A stretch of DNA of 64,000 nucleotides from Marinitoga aeolica (lineage in GTDB: Bacteria; Thermotogota; Thermotogae; Petrotogales; Petrotogaceae). Each line of letters begins with the position of its first letter. Position 1 is the stretch's first letter. The position numbers and the translations under genes were made by a program. The stretch lies in contig NZ_CP069362.1 in the NCBI RefSeq assembly GCF_029910535.1, forward strand, positions 372,001 to 436,000, in the 5' to 3' direction. Shown here one piece after another: positions 12,117 to 45,064 of this stretch. The notes under the pieces are model-generated. The model was not told where the DNA came from and made no database searches. It saw nothing but the letters and a program-made list of their open reading frames with translations.

Positions 12117-15100
12117 CTTCATATTCAAATATGGCCTATTAAAAACTAAAATCAACGCAGCAAAATTTAATGTAACTGTTGAATTTACATTCCAATATGG
12201 ATGATTAAAAACACAGAATCTTTTAACTGGTAGCGAGTTTATTTTTTCATTTACATTCCAATATGGATGATTAAAAACTCGGATTACAATATTATGACAT
12301 TTTTATTTGGTTCGATATTTACATTCCAATATGGATGATTAAAAACACAGTTTCAACAACAGAGGGCGGTGACCCTTCTACAATTTACATTCCAATATGG
12401 ATGATTAAAAACAAATCTTCGGAATTTGAAATTGGTGTGATTTTTGCAATTTACATTCCAATATGGATGATTAAAAACTTCATCTTATATCACGCTCCTT
12501 ATATAAAAATAATAATTTACATTCCAATATGGATGATTAAAAACATCATTTTTGACATACTTTTCATTTACAATTGTAATATTTACATTCCAATATGGAT
12601 GATTAAAAACAAAAAGAAAGAACTTAAAGGTATAACTGTAATACAAATTTACATTCCAATATGGATGATTAAAAACTGCTACCGTTGATGTTGCAATTGA
12701 TTTAGTTAAAGTATTTACATTCCAATATGGATGATTAAAAACTTCCAAGGGGTAGCAAATCAGCTATCCCTTTATTTGATTTACATTCCAATATGGATGA
12801 TTAAAAACCTTGGAATTCAAGAATTTTTATATCAGCTTGTTCGTTATTTACATTCCAATATGGATGATTAAAAACAAGACTTTTGAAGATATGCTATCTT
12901 TAATATACGAAAATTTACATTCCAATATGGATAATTAAAAACGTTCAGCCTCTAAAATAAAATCCTCACCTAACCATTCATTTACATTCCAATATGGATG
13001 ATTAAAAACACCAAAGAAAGCGTCGGAATGGTTTTATAGTTCAATATTTACATTCCAATATGGATGATTAAAAACAAAATGGAGAAGCTTACTTTCAAGA
13101 AATGCAAAACAATTTACATTCCAATATGGATGATTAAAAACTTCTATGGGAGGATTATCTGAAAACTATGACAAAGCATTTACATTCCAATATGGATGAT
13201 TAAAAACTTCTTCTACGTGTGAAAATGTTCCCCTATCCAAAACATTTACATTCCAATATGGATGATTAAAAACCTTGTATTTTGGTATTCTTTTTTTGCA
13301 AAAGAAAGATTTACATTCCAATATGGATGATTAAAAACATCGCCAATAGTCAAATCTGTTGTAAATCCAACGGCATTTACATTCCAATATGGATGATTAA
13401 AAACATATAATTTAGATTTTAATGCAAAATTAAATGCTTCATTTACATTCCAATATGGATGATTAAAAACAACGAGGTCGAGGACATGGAATGTATATGA
13501 CAACAAATTTACATTCCAATATGGATGATTAAAAACTTGATGTAATAAAAAAATTTAAAGATGAATTATTTAATTTACATTCCAATATGGATGATTAAAA
13601 ACCCCAATTTACAGTGAGTTATATTTCTTTAATTTGTCATTTACATTCCAATATGGATGATTAAAAACCTGGATAAAATTCCGCTTAAAGCTCCACCAAT
13701 AGCATTTACATTCCAATATGGATGATTAAAAACTTCATCTTATATCACGCTCCTTATATAAAAATAATAATTTACATTCCAATATGGATGATTAAAAACT
13801 ACAGTTAATAAAGTTCAAGAGTGGTTGAATAACGTATTTACATTCCAATATGGATGATTAAAAACTACGGTAATTACATCAAATAAATCAAGATTTAAAT
13901 CATTTACATTCCAATATGGATGATTAAAAACTTAGCTGGAAGATTATTAAAGACAGAAAAAGAAAAAATTTACATTCCAATATGGATGATTAAAAACAAA
14001 ATTAAATGAATTCAAAGAAAAAATAGAGTTATCATTTACATTCCAATATGGATGATTAAAAACGCCGTTTTCGTCTTTATAATCAGGGATACCACCTGCA
14101 TTTACATTCCAATATGGATGATTAAAAACTCTGGCATATCATCAAATTTTTCATCTTCTAAATCATTTACATTCCAATATGGATGATTAAAAACTCGATT
14201 GTTGAACCTGTTTGTTCCGCAACTGCTACATTTACATTCCAATATGGATGATTAAAAACGAAGACCAAAATATATGAATGGGTGATAACATGAGAATTTA
14301 CATTCCAATATGGATGATTAAAAACTATCTTGTAAAGTAGTTACAAGCGTTAATTCGGATATTTACATTCCAATATGGATGATTAAAAACGTAGCTCATA
14401 AAGCCCAAAGACTAAAATTAAACAATATTTACATTCCAATATGGATGATTAAAAACAAATTTTTCATCTTCTAAATCTGGTAATTCACCAAAATTTACAT
14501 TCCAATATGGATGATTAAAAACACGAATTTATTTACCAGTTAGCAACACCCGTTATTGATTTACATTCCAATATGGATGATTAAAAACTTCTTCTGAAAA
14601 TATAACATTCAATGGTTATCCGTAATTTACATTCCAATATGGATGATTAAAAACCTTGTTTATATTTTACTGCTAATGTATAATTTGTGTTATTTACATT
14701 CCAATATGGATGATTAAAAACCAAGAAGCATTGTCTTATCTTGCTATGAAATACGAATTTACATTCCAATATGGATGATTAAAAACTAAAGAATTCATTC
14801 TTTTTTCTGGATTTTCACTTAAATTTACATTCCAATATGGATGATTAAAAACCATTTTTGATATGTTATATTTATTTTGCAATGCACTATTTACATTCCA
14901 ATATGGATGATTAAAAACCCTGTTCCTGTATCGCTTGGTAATGAATGAGAATGAGATTTACATTCCAATATGGATGATTAAAAACGCTTCCAAATCCTTT
15001 TTCGCCTCTTTCGGTGTTTTTATTTACATTCCAATATGGATGATTAAAAACTGGAAATGTGATAAAAGATGTGAGTTATACAACAACATTTACATTCCAA

Positions 15101-18100
15101 TATGGATGATTAAAAACCAATCTTGAATTATTAAATGAATTAGCAAATATTTTATTTACATTCCAATATGGATGATTAAAAACTATACTGAACATGGAGA
15201 TAGAATGATAGGGACAGGATTTACATTCCAATATGGATGATTAAAAACTGCTTTTCCTAATGCTAAATAAAATAAAAGTCCTGTATTTACATTCCAATAT
15301 GGATGATTAAAAACATGGTGGGTCTGCAAAGATTAAAGCATTTTCAGGAATATTTACATTCCAATATGGATGATTAAAAACCAGAAAATTATGACGCTAA
15401 ATTTTATGGTATTGATTTATTTACATTCCAATATGGATGATTAAAAACACCGATTAAAAAATTTGAAGAGGTAAAAAAAGAATTATTTACATTCCAATAT
15501 GGATGATTAAAAACTTTATTTTTGGTTGGTTTGCTTGCTGGTTTGCTTGCATTTACATTCCAATATGGATGATTAAAAACATGAACCAGAAACAACCGAA
15601 ACGGAAATTAAATTCATTTACATTCCAATATGGATGATTAAAAACGACTACTTTTTAATAGAAAGTTATCCCGTTTATAATATTTACATTCCAATATGGA
15701 TGATTAAAAACTAAAATTTTTGCTAATATTTCAAGCACGATTAAAAAATTTACATTCCAATATGGATGATTAAAAACACAGGAAGAACCGCCACAAACTC
15801 AGAAGTAACATTAATTTACATTCCAATATGGATGATTAAAAACAATGTCATATCCCTCAAAACAAGGTAACGGTTTGCTATTTACATTCCAATATGGATG
15901 ATTAAAAACCTTGACCCATAACAAATGCAATTAAAGCCTTAGTCTATTTACATTCCAATATGGATGATTAAAAACCCCGTAAAATCTATAGTGCCAACTG
16001 CAACGATTTGATTTACATTCCAATATGGATGATTAAAAACCGAAACATTAAACGTTGAAGATTTTGAAAGTTATGAATTTACATTCCAATATGGATGATT
16101 AAAAACTTGCTACAAATAAACTGCCGAAAGCTCCTGCTAAACATTTACATTCCAATATGGATGATTAAAAACTTCAGAAATCCCGCAACTATACAATTGC
16201 TGTAATTATTTACATTCCAATATGGATGATTAAAAACTGTAAAATCATGTATATTTGCAAATCCATATTTCTCATTTACATTCCAATATGGATGATTAAA
16301 AACCGGAGTTGGATTAATGGCAACAATTAAAAAAAGCATATTTACATTCCAATATGGATGATTAAAAACTTAGTTGGTGCAAAATGTTATGTGAAAAGAA
16401 CAGATATTTACATTCCAATATGGATGATTAAAAACGACGTTTGTTAAAAGAATTAGAAAATAAAGGATTTTATTTACATTCCAATATGGATGATTAAAAA
16501 CAATGGAAACATATGTTTTAATGCAAGACCCGAAAACATTTACATTCCAATATGGATGATTAAAAACCTCAGTATAAGCTTTCCCATCTATCATAACATA
16601 TTTATTTACATTCCAATATGGATGATTAAAAACTCAATATAAATACAGATGTTGAAATGATAGAAGGAGATTTACATTCCAATATGGATGATTAAAAACG
16701 AAAAAAATGAAACCGCGCCAGAAAAAACAACTGAAATTTACATTCCAATATGGATGATTAAAAACTATTATTTCATCCGTGGCGTGATTAGTTAAAATAA
16801 CATTTACATTCCAATATGGATGATTAAAAACGTTTTAAAGCTTCATTTCTGTATTTTTCATAATTAATATTTACATTCCAATATGGATGATTAAAAACTT
16901 ATACAAGATACTTCAGAGGTGATGCAGATGAATATTTACATTCCAATATGGATGATTAAAAACATATTTAGCTTTTTGGTCTAACATTCCACCTACTTCA
17001 TTTACATTCCAATATGGATGATTAAAAACATGATGAATGAATTAATTAGTTTTTTTGTAGGTATATTTACATTCCAATATGGATGATTAAAAACTTCATC
17101 AGTGTATAAAATTAATTCTTTGAAGAAAAAATTTACATTCCAATATGGATGATTAAAAACTTTAAGCAACACAAATATAACCGATACAATTGATTGAATT
17201 TACATTCCAATATGGATGATTAAAAACAAGAAATTGTTGCAGAACAATATCCAAAATATGATGATTTACATTCCAATATGGATGATTAAAAACAAAATTA
17301 AACCTCTTAAATCGCTTTATTTTAAATTATTTACATTCCAATATGGATGATTAAAAACGTGAGAACTAATTTCTATCAATTTCTTTTCTAAGCCATTTAC
17401 ATTCCAATATGGATGATTAAAAACTGATAATGATTCAGTCCAATAAGCTATTACTCCTGTATTTACATTCCAATATGGATGATTAAAAACTTGAAGATGG
17501 CCAACCATAAAAAAACAAAACTTTTTTATTTACATTCCAATATGGATGATTAAAAACACGAAATTATTACAAGAACCGCAAGCGCTTTAGAAAATTTACA
17601 TTCCAATATGGATGATTAAAAACTTAAATAATTAGATAATAACGATGTTGCTATACCAAATTTACATTCCAATATGGATGATTAAAAACCCGCTTCAGGA
17701 TTAGCATTTTATCTTGCATTAGGTAATTTACATTCCAATATGGATGATTAAAAACAAAGAGGTGGTGTATTTTGGTATTTTCTTATGAGTATTTACATTC
17801 CAATATGGATGATTAAAAACTATGAATCCTCCTTCTCAAAATGAAGATGAAATATCATTTACATTCCAATATGGATGATTAAAAACTATTCCGTATTTGG
17901 TTTTTAATGCACTCGGTGGTATATTTACATTCCAATATGGATGATTAAAAACTTCAATATCCCCAGCATTTAATAATCCAGTTATACGATTTACATTCCA
18001 ATATGGATGATTAAAAACGAAAGCGGCATTATTCTGCCGCTTCTTCTGTGCTTTATTTACATTCCAATATGGATGATTAAAAACTTCAGTATTTTCCTCA

Positions 18101-20458
18101 AGTTTATCAAAAGAATTTAAATTTACATTCCAATATGGATGATTAAAAACATTTTCAAATTTTATTAGTTTTGCTTTTTTTACTGGATTTACATTCCAAT
18201 ATGGATGATTAAAAACTATTAATCTTGAAGAATTTTACGAAACTACAAACGAATTTACATTCCAATATGGATGATTAAAAACCCTTTTTTGATTTGGATA
18301 TAAGAAACTAATTATAATATTTACATTCCAATATGGATGATTAAAAACGGAAATAGCTGCACCTTCACCAACCCATGTTACGCTATTTACATTCCAATAT
18401 GGATGATTAAAAACCCTACATCTTTTGCATATCTTGAAATAATATTATCATTTACATTCCAATATGGATGATTAAAAACGAACAATTTGAGAATTGAAAA
18501 TTTTGAACGAATGTAATTTACATTCCAATATGGATGATTAAAAACATTTACAAAAAACTCGTTGAAGATTCATTAGTAAAGATTTACATTCCAATATGGA
18601 TGATTAAAAACGTGTCTAAACTTTCCACAGCAGTTTTAACGGCTGTTATTTACATTCCAATATGGATGATTAAAAACATAAACTACGCTATCATGTGAAT
18701 GTGATAATTCTAAATTTACATTCCAATATGGATGATTAAAAACAAAAAGAATAATAGCAAGAGAATATATGCGAAATTTATTTACATTCCAATATGGATG
18801 ATTAAAAACTCTGTATATTACCATTACGATTATATTTTAAAAATTCATTTACATTCCAATATGGATGATTAAAAACGGAGGTATGACTCTTATGGCTTTA
18901 ATTCCAATACAAATTTACATTCCAATATGGATGATTAAAAACTTTTCATTTTCTTCTCAATCATCTTATCAATTACTATTTACATTCCAATATGGATGAT
19001 TAAAAACATAGCCAATATTTTAATTTTACGATATAAATCATTATTTACATTCCAATATGGATGATTAAAAACTTATAAATTCTTGTTTTTTCTCATCTTC
19101 TTTTATAAAATTTACATTCCAATATGGATGATTAAAAACAACTGCTCCTAATAATTTTGTTATTGAAGAGTCATCATTTACATTCCAATATGGATGATTA
19201 AAAACTCTTTTATCAATCTCATCATTAATAAGCATTTTAAAATTTACATTCCAATATGGATGATTAAAAACCCAACAGGGAATATAAGTTTTCCATCTTT
19301 TTTATAATTTACATTCCAATATGGATGATTAAAAACAAATCAATATGATATAAAAGACAGTTTATTCTTTTCATTTACATTCCAATATGGATGATTAAAA
19401 ACTGGATTTTTTATTAAAAGAATTCCAGCTAATTTAAAATTTACATTCCAATATGGATGATTAAAAACCCTAATGCTTCATCAAATTTAAGCATATCTAA
19501 AAGATTTACATTCCAATATGGATGATTAAAAACTATAACAGGTTTAACCATTACAAATGGAACATTATTATTTACATTCCAATATGGATGATTAAAAACA
19601 TAAGTATTAACTTTTTTTCTTTTATCACCTTTTAAATTTACATTCCAATATGGATGATTAAAAACTTCATTATTAGAAGATTCGAGACACTTAATATACA
19701 TATTTACATTCCAATATGGATGATTAAAAACGCAGTAAATTCTTTTTCTGATATGTTGTATAATCTTATTTACATTCCAATATGGATGATTAAAAACTAT
19801 AAATTCTTTTTTCTTTTCGTCTTCTTTTATGAAATTTACATTCCAATATGGATGATTAAAAACTATGCAAAATCCAATGTTATTAGCTGGTATTGGATTA
19901 TTTACATTCCAATATGGATGATTAAAAACTTTACACCATATTTTATCGCCATTCTTAACTCATTAATTTACATTCCAATATGGATGATTAAAAACTCTTT
20001 TATTATTATCCAAAGTATAAACTAATCCATTATTTACATTCCAATATGGATGATTAAAAACTATAAGTTTTTGTGTTCGGTTCATTTTCAAAAATTTGAT
20101 TTACATTCCAATATGGATGATTAAAAACAGCGTTAGCTTTTTCAAGTAAAGCTTGAGCTTTTTCATTTACATTCCAATATGGATGATTAAAAACCTGCAA
20201 CAAAACAAATAACTTTTAGTGCCTTAACAGGATTTACATTCCAATATGGATGATTAAAAACCTATTATAGCCGTCTTCTTCAACAATTTTTTGAATATTT
20301 ACATTCCAATATGGATGATTAAAAACGTTACCACCAGTTTTAATTCTAATATATTTTATTTCATTTACATTCCAATATGGATGATTAAAAACTTGTACAT
20401 CTTCAATAATACCTGTTAAAGCATCTAAATTTACATTCCAATATGGATGATTAAAAAC
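12117..20458 (-). CRISPR. CRISPR array: 126 repeats plus one degenerate terminal repeat, type I-B
   Basis: A 30-nt repeat (plus-strand form begins ATTTACATTC and ends GATTAAAAAC) recurs from 12183 to 20458. Counting by hand gives 126 copies and 125 spacers of mostly 35-37 nt; 8246 nt divided by 125 units is 66.0, which agrees. Repeats are nearly invariant; one copy (12913-12942) has G to A at 12933. A decayed copy at 12117-12146 matches 23 of 30 positions and is followed by one more 36-nt spacer. The crRNA strand is taken as minus: the reverse complement begins GTTTTTAATC and ends GGAATGTAAAT, like known Tneap-type I-B repeats. The decayed repeat lies at the far end, and the cas genes and leader lie at the right end. 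Newest spacers should therefore be near 20458. Confidence 0.98.
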
Positions 20459-20633: not shown

Positions 20634-20918
20634 TCATAAAAAATTTGAAGTTTTATCTTCTTCAACTCCCCAAAATTCCTTGTTTAACCATCTTTCATTA
20701 CGACTTTCAAAAACTATTATCGAATCTAAATCTTTTCTAATAATATTTTCTAATTCGTATCTTAATTTATATATTTCTGATTTCGTTAATTCTCCCTCAA
20801 AAACAGAATTTTGTATATGATATAAATACTTTTTGCAAATTTTAAATACCTTTGGTAAAATTTTTTCTCCAACACCATCTTCATCAAATTTGATATCATA
20901 AACTAATAATATATACAT
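20634..20918 (-). CDS. cas2: CRISPR-associated endonuclease Cas2
   Basis: A protein of 94 residues with the Cas2 ferredoxin-like fold. It opens MYILLVYDIKFDED, with the conserved aspartate at residue 8, followed by YLYHIQNSVFEGELT, the typical second block. Cas2 dimers bridge two Cas1 dimers to form the spacer integrase. The length is usual. It lies 6 nt after cas1 with a GGTGGTGAG binding site and is the last gene of the cas operon, 175 nt from the first repeat. Confidence 0.96.
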   Translation of the reverse strand: MYILLVYDIKFDEDGVGEKILPKVFKICKKYLYHIQNSVFEGELTKSEIYKLRYELENIIRKDLDSIIVFESRNERWLNKEFWGVEEDKTSNFL

Positions 20919-27886: not shown

Positions 27887-28591
27887 CTAAATTATATCTA
27901 CCATTCCAAACCCTGAACTTCTTTTACTACCAATCCCAGATTTATATACAAAGTCTAATATTTTTTTATCTCCATGTATTTTTAAAATACCTAAATTACT
28001 TTTAATTTTTTTACTATAATTTAATATTGTTGTTTTTTTAAAATCTAATACTTTAATATCTAATTCTCCATTTTCACTTTTGAACAATTTGCTATATTGA
28101 TATTTAATGTTATTTTTTAGAATATCTATAGCATTTTCCTCATCAAAATAATAATATTTATCTTTTTCTTTATTATGTTCTCTAATAACTATTGGAGATA
28201 ATGTTTTTATTATTATTTCATTTTTATATATATTTTTTTCTGGTAATTTAATAATATTATTTAATTTCAAAATATTATTTTTTATCGGAAATTCTTTGTA
28301 TTTCATATTAATAAAAGCATTGTAAAAATGTATTCCTGTTTTATAGGATGAGGTTGATAAAAACATTGATATATTTTCATTTTCAATTTTTATATTTTCT
28401 TCAAATTTACATTTCCCAAAATACACTGAAAATGTATAATCCTTTAATATGGGATCTTTATTTCTAAAGTACTCTTCAAATATGCTTTTATCATAGCTTT
28501 CCAGTGTTTTTTTTATAAAACTCATAAATATACGTCTATAGTCTTTAGGGATTTCATTTGATTTTAAATTGAAAATTAATTTTAATCTCAT
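27887..28591 (-). CDS. cas6: CRISPR repeat endoribonuclease Cas6
   Basis: A protein of 234 residues that cuts the pre-crRNA within each repeat. It opens with MRLKLIFNLKSNEIPKDYRRIFMSFIKKTLE and ends with the glycine-rich RNA-binding loop GIGSKRSSGFGMVDII that defines the family. Cleavage 8 nt from the repeat 3' end would leave a handle ending in GTAAAT, judged by analogy with other I-B systems. It is the first gene of the cas operon; GAGGTGA lies before the start. Upstream are a palindrome and an RNA-like promoter/terminator unit. Confidence 0.95.
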   Translation of the reverse strand: MRLKLIFNLKSNEIPKDYRRIFMSFIKKTLESYDKSIFEEYFRNKDPILKDYTFSVYFGKCKFEENIKIENENISMFLSTSSYKTGIHFYNAFINMKYKEFPIKNNILKLNNIIKLPEKNIYKNEIIIKTLSPIVIREHNKEKDKYYYFDEENAIDILKNNIKYQYSKLFKSENGELDIKVLDFKKTTILNYSKKIKSNLGILKIHGDKKILDFVYKSGIGSKRSSGFGMVDII

Positions 28592-28657
28592 AATTTCACC
28601 TCATTATCTCTGTATGGATTATTATTCTAATGAAAAATTTTTATCACTAATATTGAA

Positions 28658-28685
28658 AATTAATATATCACTTGATATATTAATT
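28658..28685. promoter_or_regulatory. 28-nt palindrome before cas6
   Basis: AATTAATATATCA and TGATATATTAATT form 13-bp arms around a CT centre. It lies about 70 nt before the cas6 start, just after the terminator of the upstream RNA. It is a candidate operator for a regulator of the cas operon, or a stem in the leader transcript. Confidence 0.5.
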
Positions 28686-28692
28686 AATAAAA

Positions 28693-28720
28693 ACAACGAG
28701 ACCTCTTTAGGCCTCGCTGT
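28693..28720 (-). terminator. Intrinsic terminator upstream of the cas operon
   Basis: On the minus strand ACAGCGAGGCCT pairs with AGGTCTCGTTGT (12 bp with two or three G-U pairs, AAAG loop), followed by TTTTATT. It lies about 100 nt before cas6. Confidence 0.75.
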
Positions 28721-28808
28721 CTATTTTTAATAATATTAAATTTTTATTGGTTTGTAGTTTTAGTTTTATAATATAATAAAACATAACCCATCCCCCATCA
28801 AGTTTCCT
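28693..28808 (-). ncRNA. Putative small RNA or attenuated leader upstream of the cas operon
   Basis: A consensus promoter (28843-28815) is followed about 90 nt later by an intrinsic terminator (28720-28693), which delimits a transcript of roughly 116 nt. It contains a 7-bp hairpin GTTTTAT/ATAAAAC and a 10-codon frame MGDGLCFIIL (28798-28766) with a weak binding site. No repeat-like sequence is clear. It could be a stand-alone RNA, a leader with attenuation for cas expression, or a decayed gene start. Confidence 0.5.
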
Positions 28809-28814
28809 ATTTCC

Positions 28815-28843
28815 ATTATAATAAAAAATTTCTAATTTGTCAA
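28815..28843 (-). promoter_or_regulatory. Perfect consensus sigma-A promoter upstream of the cas operon
   Basis: On the minus strand TTGACA (28843-28838) and TATAAT (28820-28815) are separated by 17 nt. Both boxes are exact consensus, which is rare even in AT-rich DNA. Confidence 0.85.
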
Positions 28844-28939
28844 GTTATTTTTTATTTTTTTAACATTAACTAATAATACTAAAATCTTCATCATAAATGT
28901 TTCATATATTTTTTAATAATAGAAAAAAAGAATTAATAT

Positions 28940-44614: not shown

Positions 44615-44744
44615 AATACCCCCTCACTTTCATAAAATTTTAATTTTTATTCACTTATATATCGTCTAAAAATAAGAAAAATATTATGTTTTTCTTGTTA
44701 ATATTATACAACTTTCTATTAGTGAAATCAAGTTTTAAAAAAAT

Positions 44745-45064
44745 AAGTGGGGCTATAAGCCGGATTCTGTTAAATCGGTCATTTATCTAAGCGGTCTACC
44801 TGGAAGGGGCTAACAAGCATGCCGGGCAAGCTTACCCTTCCTATTTGACCTTGCTCAAGGTGGGGGTTACCAAGCCATCAGGTTACCCTGATGCTGGTGA
44901 GCTTTTACCTCACCGTTCCACCCTTGCCAATAATGGCGGTTTTCATTTCTATGGCCCTATTCCGAGGATCACTCCTCCCGGCAGTTAACCGGCACCTTGC
45001 CCTTAGAGTCCGGACTTTCCTCATGACGAATTGTGTTTCGCCACGCGACCGATCGCCCCACTTA
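44745..45064 (-). ncRNA. rnpB: RNase P RNA, bacterial class A-type
   Basis: The reverse complement starts with AAGTGGGGCGATCGGTCGCG and ends near GGGGCTATAGCC-like sequence pairing with it (AAGTGGGGC with GCCCCACTT, helix P1). Conserved blocks are visible: GAGGAAAGTCCGGACT near the 5' end and AGAATCCGGCTTAT near the 3' end, which form the P4 region, and GTTACCCTGATGG-like P-helix sequences. At about 320 nt and GC-rich, it stands out clearly from the AT-rich surroundings. The RNA cleaves the 5' leader of pre-tRNA. A TAGAAT box lies 10 nt upstream (45079-45074). Confidence 0.95.

Follow-up and report, generated by a model that had tools for sequence, protein, structure and literature searches.

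A conserved, unannotated short gene upstream of cas6 in Marinitoga and a crRNA-like guide in two relatives

The cas locus and the segment before cas6

The window (the whole 64,000-nt stretch of the Marinitoga aeolica genome, G000, that was analysed) carries a type I-B operon, cas6-cas8-cas7-cas5-cas3-cas4-cas1-cas2, on the minus strand. The operon begins with cas6 (27887..28591; Pfam PF01881), reaches cas2 at 20634 and is preceded by a gene that encodes a DUF996 membrane protein. A CRISPR array on the same strand (12183..20458) holds 126 repeats and 125 spacers, and no spacer targets the region before cas6 by the seed and PAM rule. All repeat matches found in the genome at three or fewer mismatches (126/126) are copies within this array; the initial annotation had seen no clear repeat-like antitoxin sequence here. 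One array spacer (17095–17130) resembles Marinitoga camini virus 2 (86%), and its flank, CCG, fits a CC PAM. Elsewhere in the window, a class A RNase P RNA gene occupies 44740–45064.

A scan of the region before cas6 returned one promoter-like site that matches the sigma-70 consensus at 12 of 12 positions (TTGACA-17-TATAAT, 28815..28843, minus strand) and one terminator-like site. The initial annotation had described this promoter, followed by an intrinsic terminator and then by a 28-nt palindrome, and all three were recovered in that order. Perfect promoters of this kind are not rare in the genus, with 41 in the window genome and about 32–43 per Marinitoga genome. The terminator (28691..28722, minus strand) has a 14-pair stem and a U tract, its hairpin is predicted at −20.1 kcal/mol, and one such site was found against 0.3 in shuffled sequence; the predicted fold of this stretch is far more stable than that of shuffles (z = −4.6). 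As the terminator sequence is largely symmetric, a convergent transcript may be terminated here too.

The palindrome, AATTAATATATCA-AG-TGATATATTAATT (28658..28685, no strand assigned), belongs to a dispersed genomic family: none would be expected in the window by chance, and the window genome has 17 sites at three or fewer mismatches (control, 0), which led us to reject the idea of a cas-specific element. Copies lie 15–70 nt before the start codons of cas6, cstA and genes for an M20 peptidase, a HAMP/Cache receptor, an HD-domain protein and a beta-propeller-like protein; the remaining copies are intergenic, with no start codon close by. The palindrome is probably a DNA element of the operator or promoter kind; its right half, TGATATATT, is similar to an extended −10, and cas6 could be transcribed from it. 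The best promoter between terminator and cas6 scores at most 9/12 both in the window, where palindrome and cas6 are separated by only 67 nt, and in G004, where cas6 starts only about 30 nt past the palindrome. The dispersed palindrome, TTAATATATCA-NN-TGATATATTAA, was also seen close to cas6 outside the window genome: at a second CRISPR locus of G006 (L032) and in another genus (L063, L071).

A short frame that runs into the terminator

Between promoter and terminator lies a mini-ORF (28707..28784, minus strand) that encodes MFYYIIKLKLQTNKNLILLKIDSEA and has its TAA stop inside the terminator loop. Just ahead of it, the G-rich motif GGGGGATGGG (28787..28796, minus strand) is its Shine–Dalgarno sequence, with a predicted pairing of −9.4 kcal/mol. 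The same arrangement, referred to here as the unit, occurs in six Marinitoga genomes, and the core of the motif, GGGATGG, is present in five of the six. Across these units the pairing ranges from −7.4 to −9.5 kcal/mol. An unusually strong Shine–Dalgarno sequence was considered and rejected, the pairing being ordinary beside a median of about −10.4 kcal/mol for 21 genes of the window.

The initial annotation had instead pointed to a 10-codon frame, MGDGLCFIIL. That frame is present (28766..28798, minus strand) and starts 14 nt before the mini-ORF. It is probably not used: its Shine–Dalgarno pairing is poor (−4.2 kcal/mol), and it is shifted in the closest relative, G006, whereas the frame from ATG 28784 is conserved in position. 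In all six units the latter is the only one of the three frames that stays open as far as the terminator, and its stop lies +1 to +39 nt past the start of the stem, never earlier. The probability of such an open frame in shuffled sequence is 0.03–0.12 per unit, and the product over the three groups that cannot be aligned with one another (G000, G001 and G004) is about 4e-4; a product of 1.5e-6, obtained by taking five units as independent, is an overstatement.

The encoded peptides vary. G000 and G006 share MFYYIIKLKLQTNKNLILLKIDSEA (both of the nucleotide differences within the frame are synonymous, and only two exist), and the corresponding peptides are MLYQYIKLKMYMMKKLILLKNRQRGLKWSRCLY in G002, MFNNKNRKMNMIIKKAQCYY in G001, MLIMVKRINKKSIDFLK in G004 and MLNNKNRKINIK in G005. 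As peptides differ between groups, it is unlikely that the unit serves to make the peptide. Rare-codon trapping was also rejected: codons 2–7 are all common in the window genome, and there are no consecutive rare codons.

Conservation within Marinitoga

Seven Marinitoga genomes were searched for a 12/12 promoter followed within 8–38 nt by GGGATGG. Five of the seven (G000, G001, G002, G004 and G005) have exactly one match, in each case at the unit, and controls had none, a result far beyond chance. Four of these five units stand before cas6; a sixth, in G006, also precedes cas6 and carries a variant of the motif. The fifth exact match is an orphan in G005, a genome without a Cas6 or Cas7 match, in which the unit is kept with no neighbouring cas operon. 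In every cas-linked case (5/5), the unit adjoins cas6 and is co-directional with it.

The segment 28860–28650 matches G006 at 93% and G002 (Marinitoga lauensis) at 79%. The sequence upstream of cas6 in G001 and G004 is mostly not confidently alignable; these genomes share the order TTGACA-17-TATAAT, G-rich stretch, ATG-TT, mini-ORF, terminator, palindrome. The promoter is a 12/12 match in all six units, with divergent 17-nt spacers. A strong terminator is likewise kept in all six, its stem differing in sequence in G001, G004 and G005, and the palindrome lies downstream of it every time (damaged in G006). Absence of the promoter and terminator from relatives, which the initial annotation had named as counting against its proposal, is not what we found: both are found again ahead of cas6 in five species of Marinitoga, and this fits its description of a compact unit that could be a small RNA or a leader keeping cas transcription low. 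On this basis, the unit is a conserved, unannotated short gene, for which a function can be proposed from its arrangement.

In 103 genomes of the class, the promoter and GGGATGG pattern had five further matches, four of which lead into long lipoprotein-like genes; for the fifth, in G095, no downstream frame of at least 30 amino acids was found. We rejected the presence of the unit in other Thermotogota genera, as the exact pattern precedes long genes in the four readable matches. In two further genomes of different genera (G018, L056; G011, L057), the non-coding region about 190 nt upstream of cas6 (start at 1501) is highly similar, whereas their Cas6 proteins share just 101 of 245 aligned positions; this upstream region contains a possible degenerate repeat (P = 0.05–0.13).

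A crRNA-like guide in two relatives

Both G006 (L026) and G002 (L027) have, between palindrome and cas6 and antisense to cas6, a pair of degenerate repeats that flank a spacer of about 30 nt. The similarity of these degenerate repeats to the CRISPR repeat exceeds that of 300 out of 300 shuffles, and the degenerate repeat psiR1 of G006 carries the same GGACTATT variant as the array of that genome. Read in the crRNA sense, the seed of the spacer matches the cas6 promoter region next to a CCA PAM, at 10/10 positions in G002 and 8/10 in G006, with the protospacer at 1442–1477 in both loci and cas6 starting at 1501. Shuffled spacers reach a 10/10 seed with a CC PAM in 0.03–0.07% of trials. The guides of the two species differ, and their targets differ along with them: that of G002 overlaps the predicted cas6 promoter TTCAGA-17-TATTAT, and that of G006 overlaps a TATAAT. 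The G002 guide has a promoter-like sequence of its own (TTAATA-17-TATAAT with a TG, 10/12) and, if processed, is predicted to carry an 8-nt handle followed by TGTGTTAGTGT. By these matches, the guide of G002 and G006 would repress the cas6 promoter region as a CreR-like cas autorepressor.

Neither the guide of these relatives nor its target is present in the window, and their cas6 promoter region is missing as well. Its best repeat match, at the position of the relatives' psiR1, is a possible decayed remnant of a CRISPR repeat (28638..28658, plus strand), with P = 0.01–0.04 against G002, G006 and its own repeat and 0.15 in a wider test. Solitary CRISPR repeats also occur outside arrays in G005 (L089, at 11187 and 3146) and G001 (L099, at 102); one of them precedes a truncated ribokinase-like gene in both genomes.

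What the unit may do

We tentatively favour the reading that the unit is a Marinitoga-specific translated leader, or attenuator, that limits cas transcription. Transcription and translation of the unit, read-through from it and a part in cas regulation are all suggested by its layout, in which an ORF overlaps an intrinsic terminator and a co-directional operon follows. Polymerase would start from the consensus promoter (at about 28808) and produce an RNA of about 120 nt; ribosomes would start at AUG 28784 and translate the mini-ORF, which ends within the terminator hairpin. Were translation to keep pace, the ribosome would cover the terminator's 5′ arm, and polymerase could read on into cas6; were it to lag, the transcript would end at about 28690. 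Given that peptide conservation is absent, the act of translation, and not the peptide, would be what matters. In the two relatives with a guide, cas6 would in addition have its own promoter region, repressible by the CreR-like guide. The promoter segment of the relatives is gone from the window, where cas6 would therefore rely to a greater extent on read-through or a weak promoter located at the palindrome. In the read-through fold the G-rich stretch pairs with the 5′ UTR of cas6; this pairing was rejected, as a reading of the G002 and G006 sequences shows that neither keeps it.

The strong terminators and the orphan unit of G005 argue against a leader and are also points for a close rival, in which the unit makes a small RNA or small mRNA with a function of its own, the terminator shields cas6 from it, and cas6 uses its own promoter at or after the palindrome. 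This account is a real possibility, to which the promoter-like sequence just before cas6 in G002 lends weight, but the peptide is not conserved between groups, this account offers no obvious explanation for an ORF that runs into the terminator every time, and linkage to cas6 is strict apart from G005. It is very improbable that the unit is a remnant of an ancestral, superseded cas promoter region, its signals kept by chance or recency. The window has indeed lost the guide and target segment present in relatives; however, 12/12 promoters with divergent spacers and terminator stems that have been replaced yet still pair, over six species, argue for selection.

A further alternative is that the unit encodes a CreT-like RNA toxin of a CreTA module, or the relic of one, once repressed by a crRNA-like guide. 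A strong promoter, a mini-ORF with its AUG and a stem-loop adjoin type I-B cas genes, degenerate repeat–spacer–repeat sequences lie beside the unit in two relatives, and bacterial creT has been described as having a mini-ORF with a Shine–Dalgarno sequence (PMC10097628). A creA would be marked by one or two degenerate repeats beside a creT, and these are found in G002 and G006 only, not in the window. The spacers of these two guides have no PAM-flanked match to the creT-like promoter; over 600 bp in G002 and G006 their best PAM-flanked match is the cas6 leader, and no CC-PAM seed match elsewhere, including the unit, exceeds 5/10, so this guide is not a CreA for the unit. Nor is the unit a target of the CRISPR-array spacers of the window, G002 and G006, whose best match among many comparisons covers 8/10 seed positions. 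A search for a guide in the window, G001, G004 and G005 found none, which would leave an active toxin free of repression in these four genomes. CreTA is expected to have a strong translation start and a stable stem-loop; in the unit a stem-loop is present, and Shine–Dalgarno pairing is average for the window. The minor codons directly after the start that are expected of tRNA-sequestering CreTA types are absent. With no guide found that targets the unit, and with the unit kept in G005 without Cas6 and Cas7, membership in CreTA is unsupported and a toxin reading of the unit is unlikely. The guarding role that the initial annotation had raised is thus not upheld; its lead of a crRNA-like RNA held in part, as such a guide exists in two relatives but not in the window, and its target is not the unit.

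Returning to the translated leader, its combination with the guide would give two layers of cas control within a few hundred base pairs, a translation-coupled attenuator and, in some species, guide-directed binding of Cascade at the cas6 promoter, with the second layer lost in the window species. We regard this combined scheme as somewhat doubtful. If it is true, natural variants separate the two layers. If translation of the mini-ORF gates cas expression, this would be the first attenuator of a CRISPR operon, as far as is known, and the genus would offer a natural comparison series for it (guide present, guide absent, cas absent). Even a modest reading provides a CreR-like guide in Thermotogota and a conserved short gene missed by annotation.

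Comparison with known systems

In translated leader attenuators such as the trp or tna leaders, a mini-ORF overlaps an intrinsic terminator and a co-directional operon lies downstream. The Marinitoga unit resembles them in that its mini-ORF overlaps an intrinsic terminator before the co-directional cas operon, and differs in that no sensing codons are conserved across the mini-ORFs and no competing antiterminator fold was found; nor did the unit match any Rfam family above the gathering score. To our knowledge, such attenuators are not known for cas operons, and a full-text literature search of incomplete coverage found no report of a leader peptide or attenuation in them.

CreTA modules have a promoter, a mini-ORF and a stem-loop next to type I cas genes (PMC8501985, PMC9458426, PMC10097628), and the unit shares these parts near cas, with psiR-psiS-psiR close by in two relatives. 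Unlike them, it lacks consecutive rare codons, the guide of the relatives has no match to the creT-like promoter, and the unit persists in G005 without Cas6 or Cas7. CreR is a crRNA-resembling autorepressor of cas operons (review, PMC12737573). Whereas the window has no crRNA-like gene and at most a decayed repeat, G002 and G006 resemble CreR in both its arrangement and its target, with a repeat–spacer–repeat near cas6 and a seed that matches the cas6 promoter region beside a PAM.
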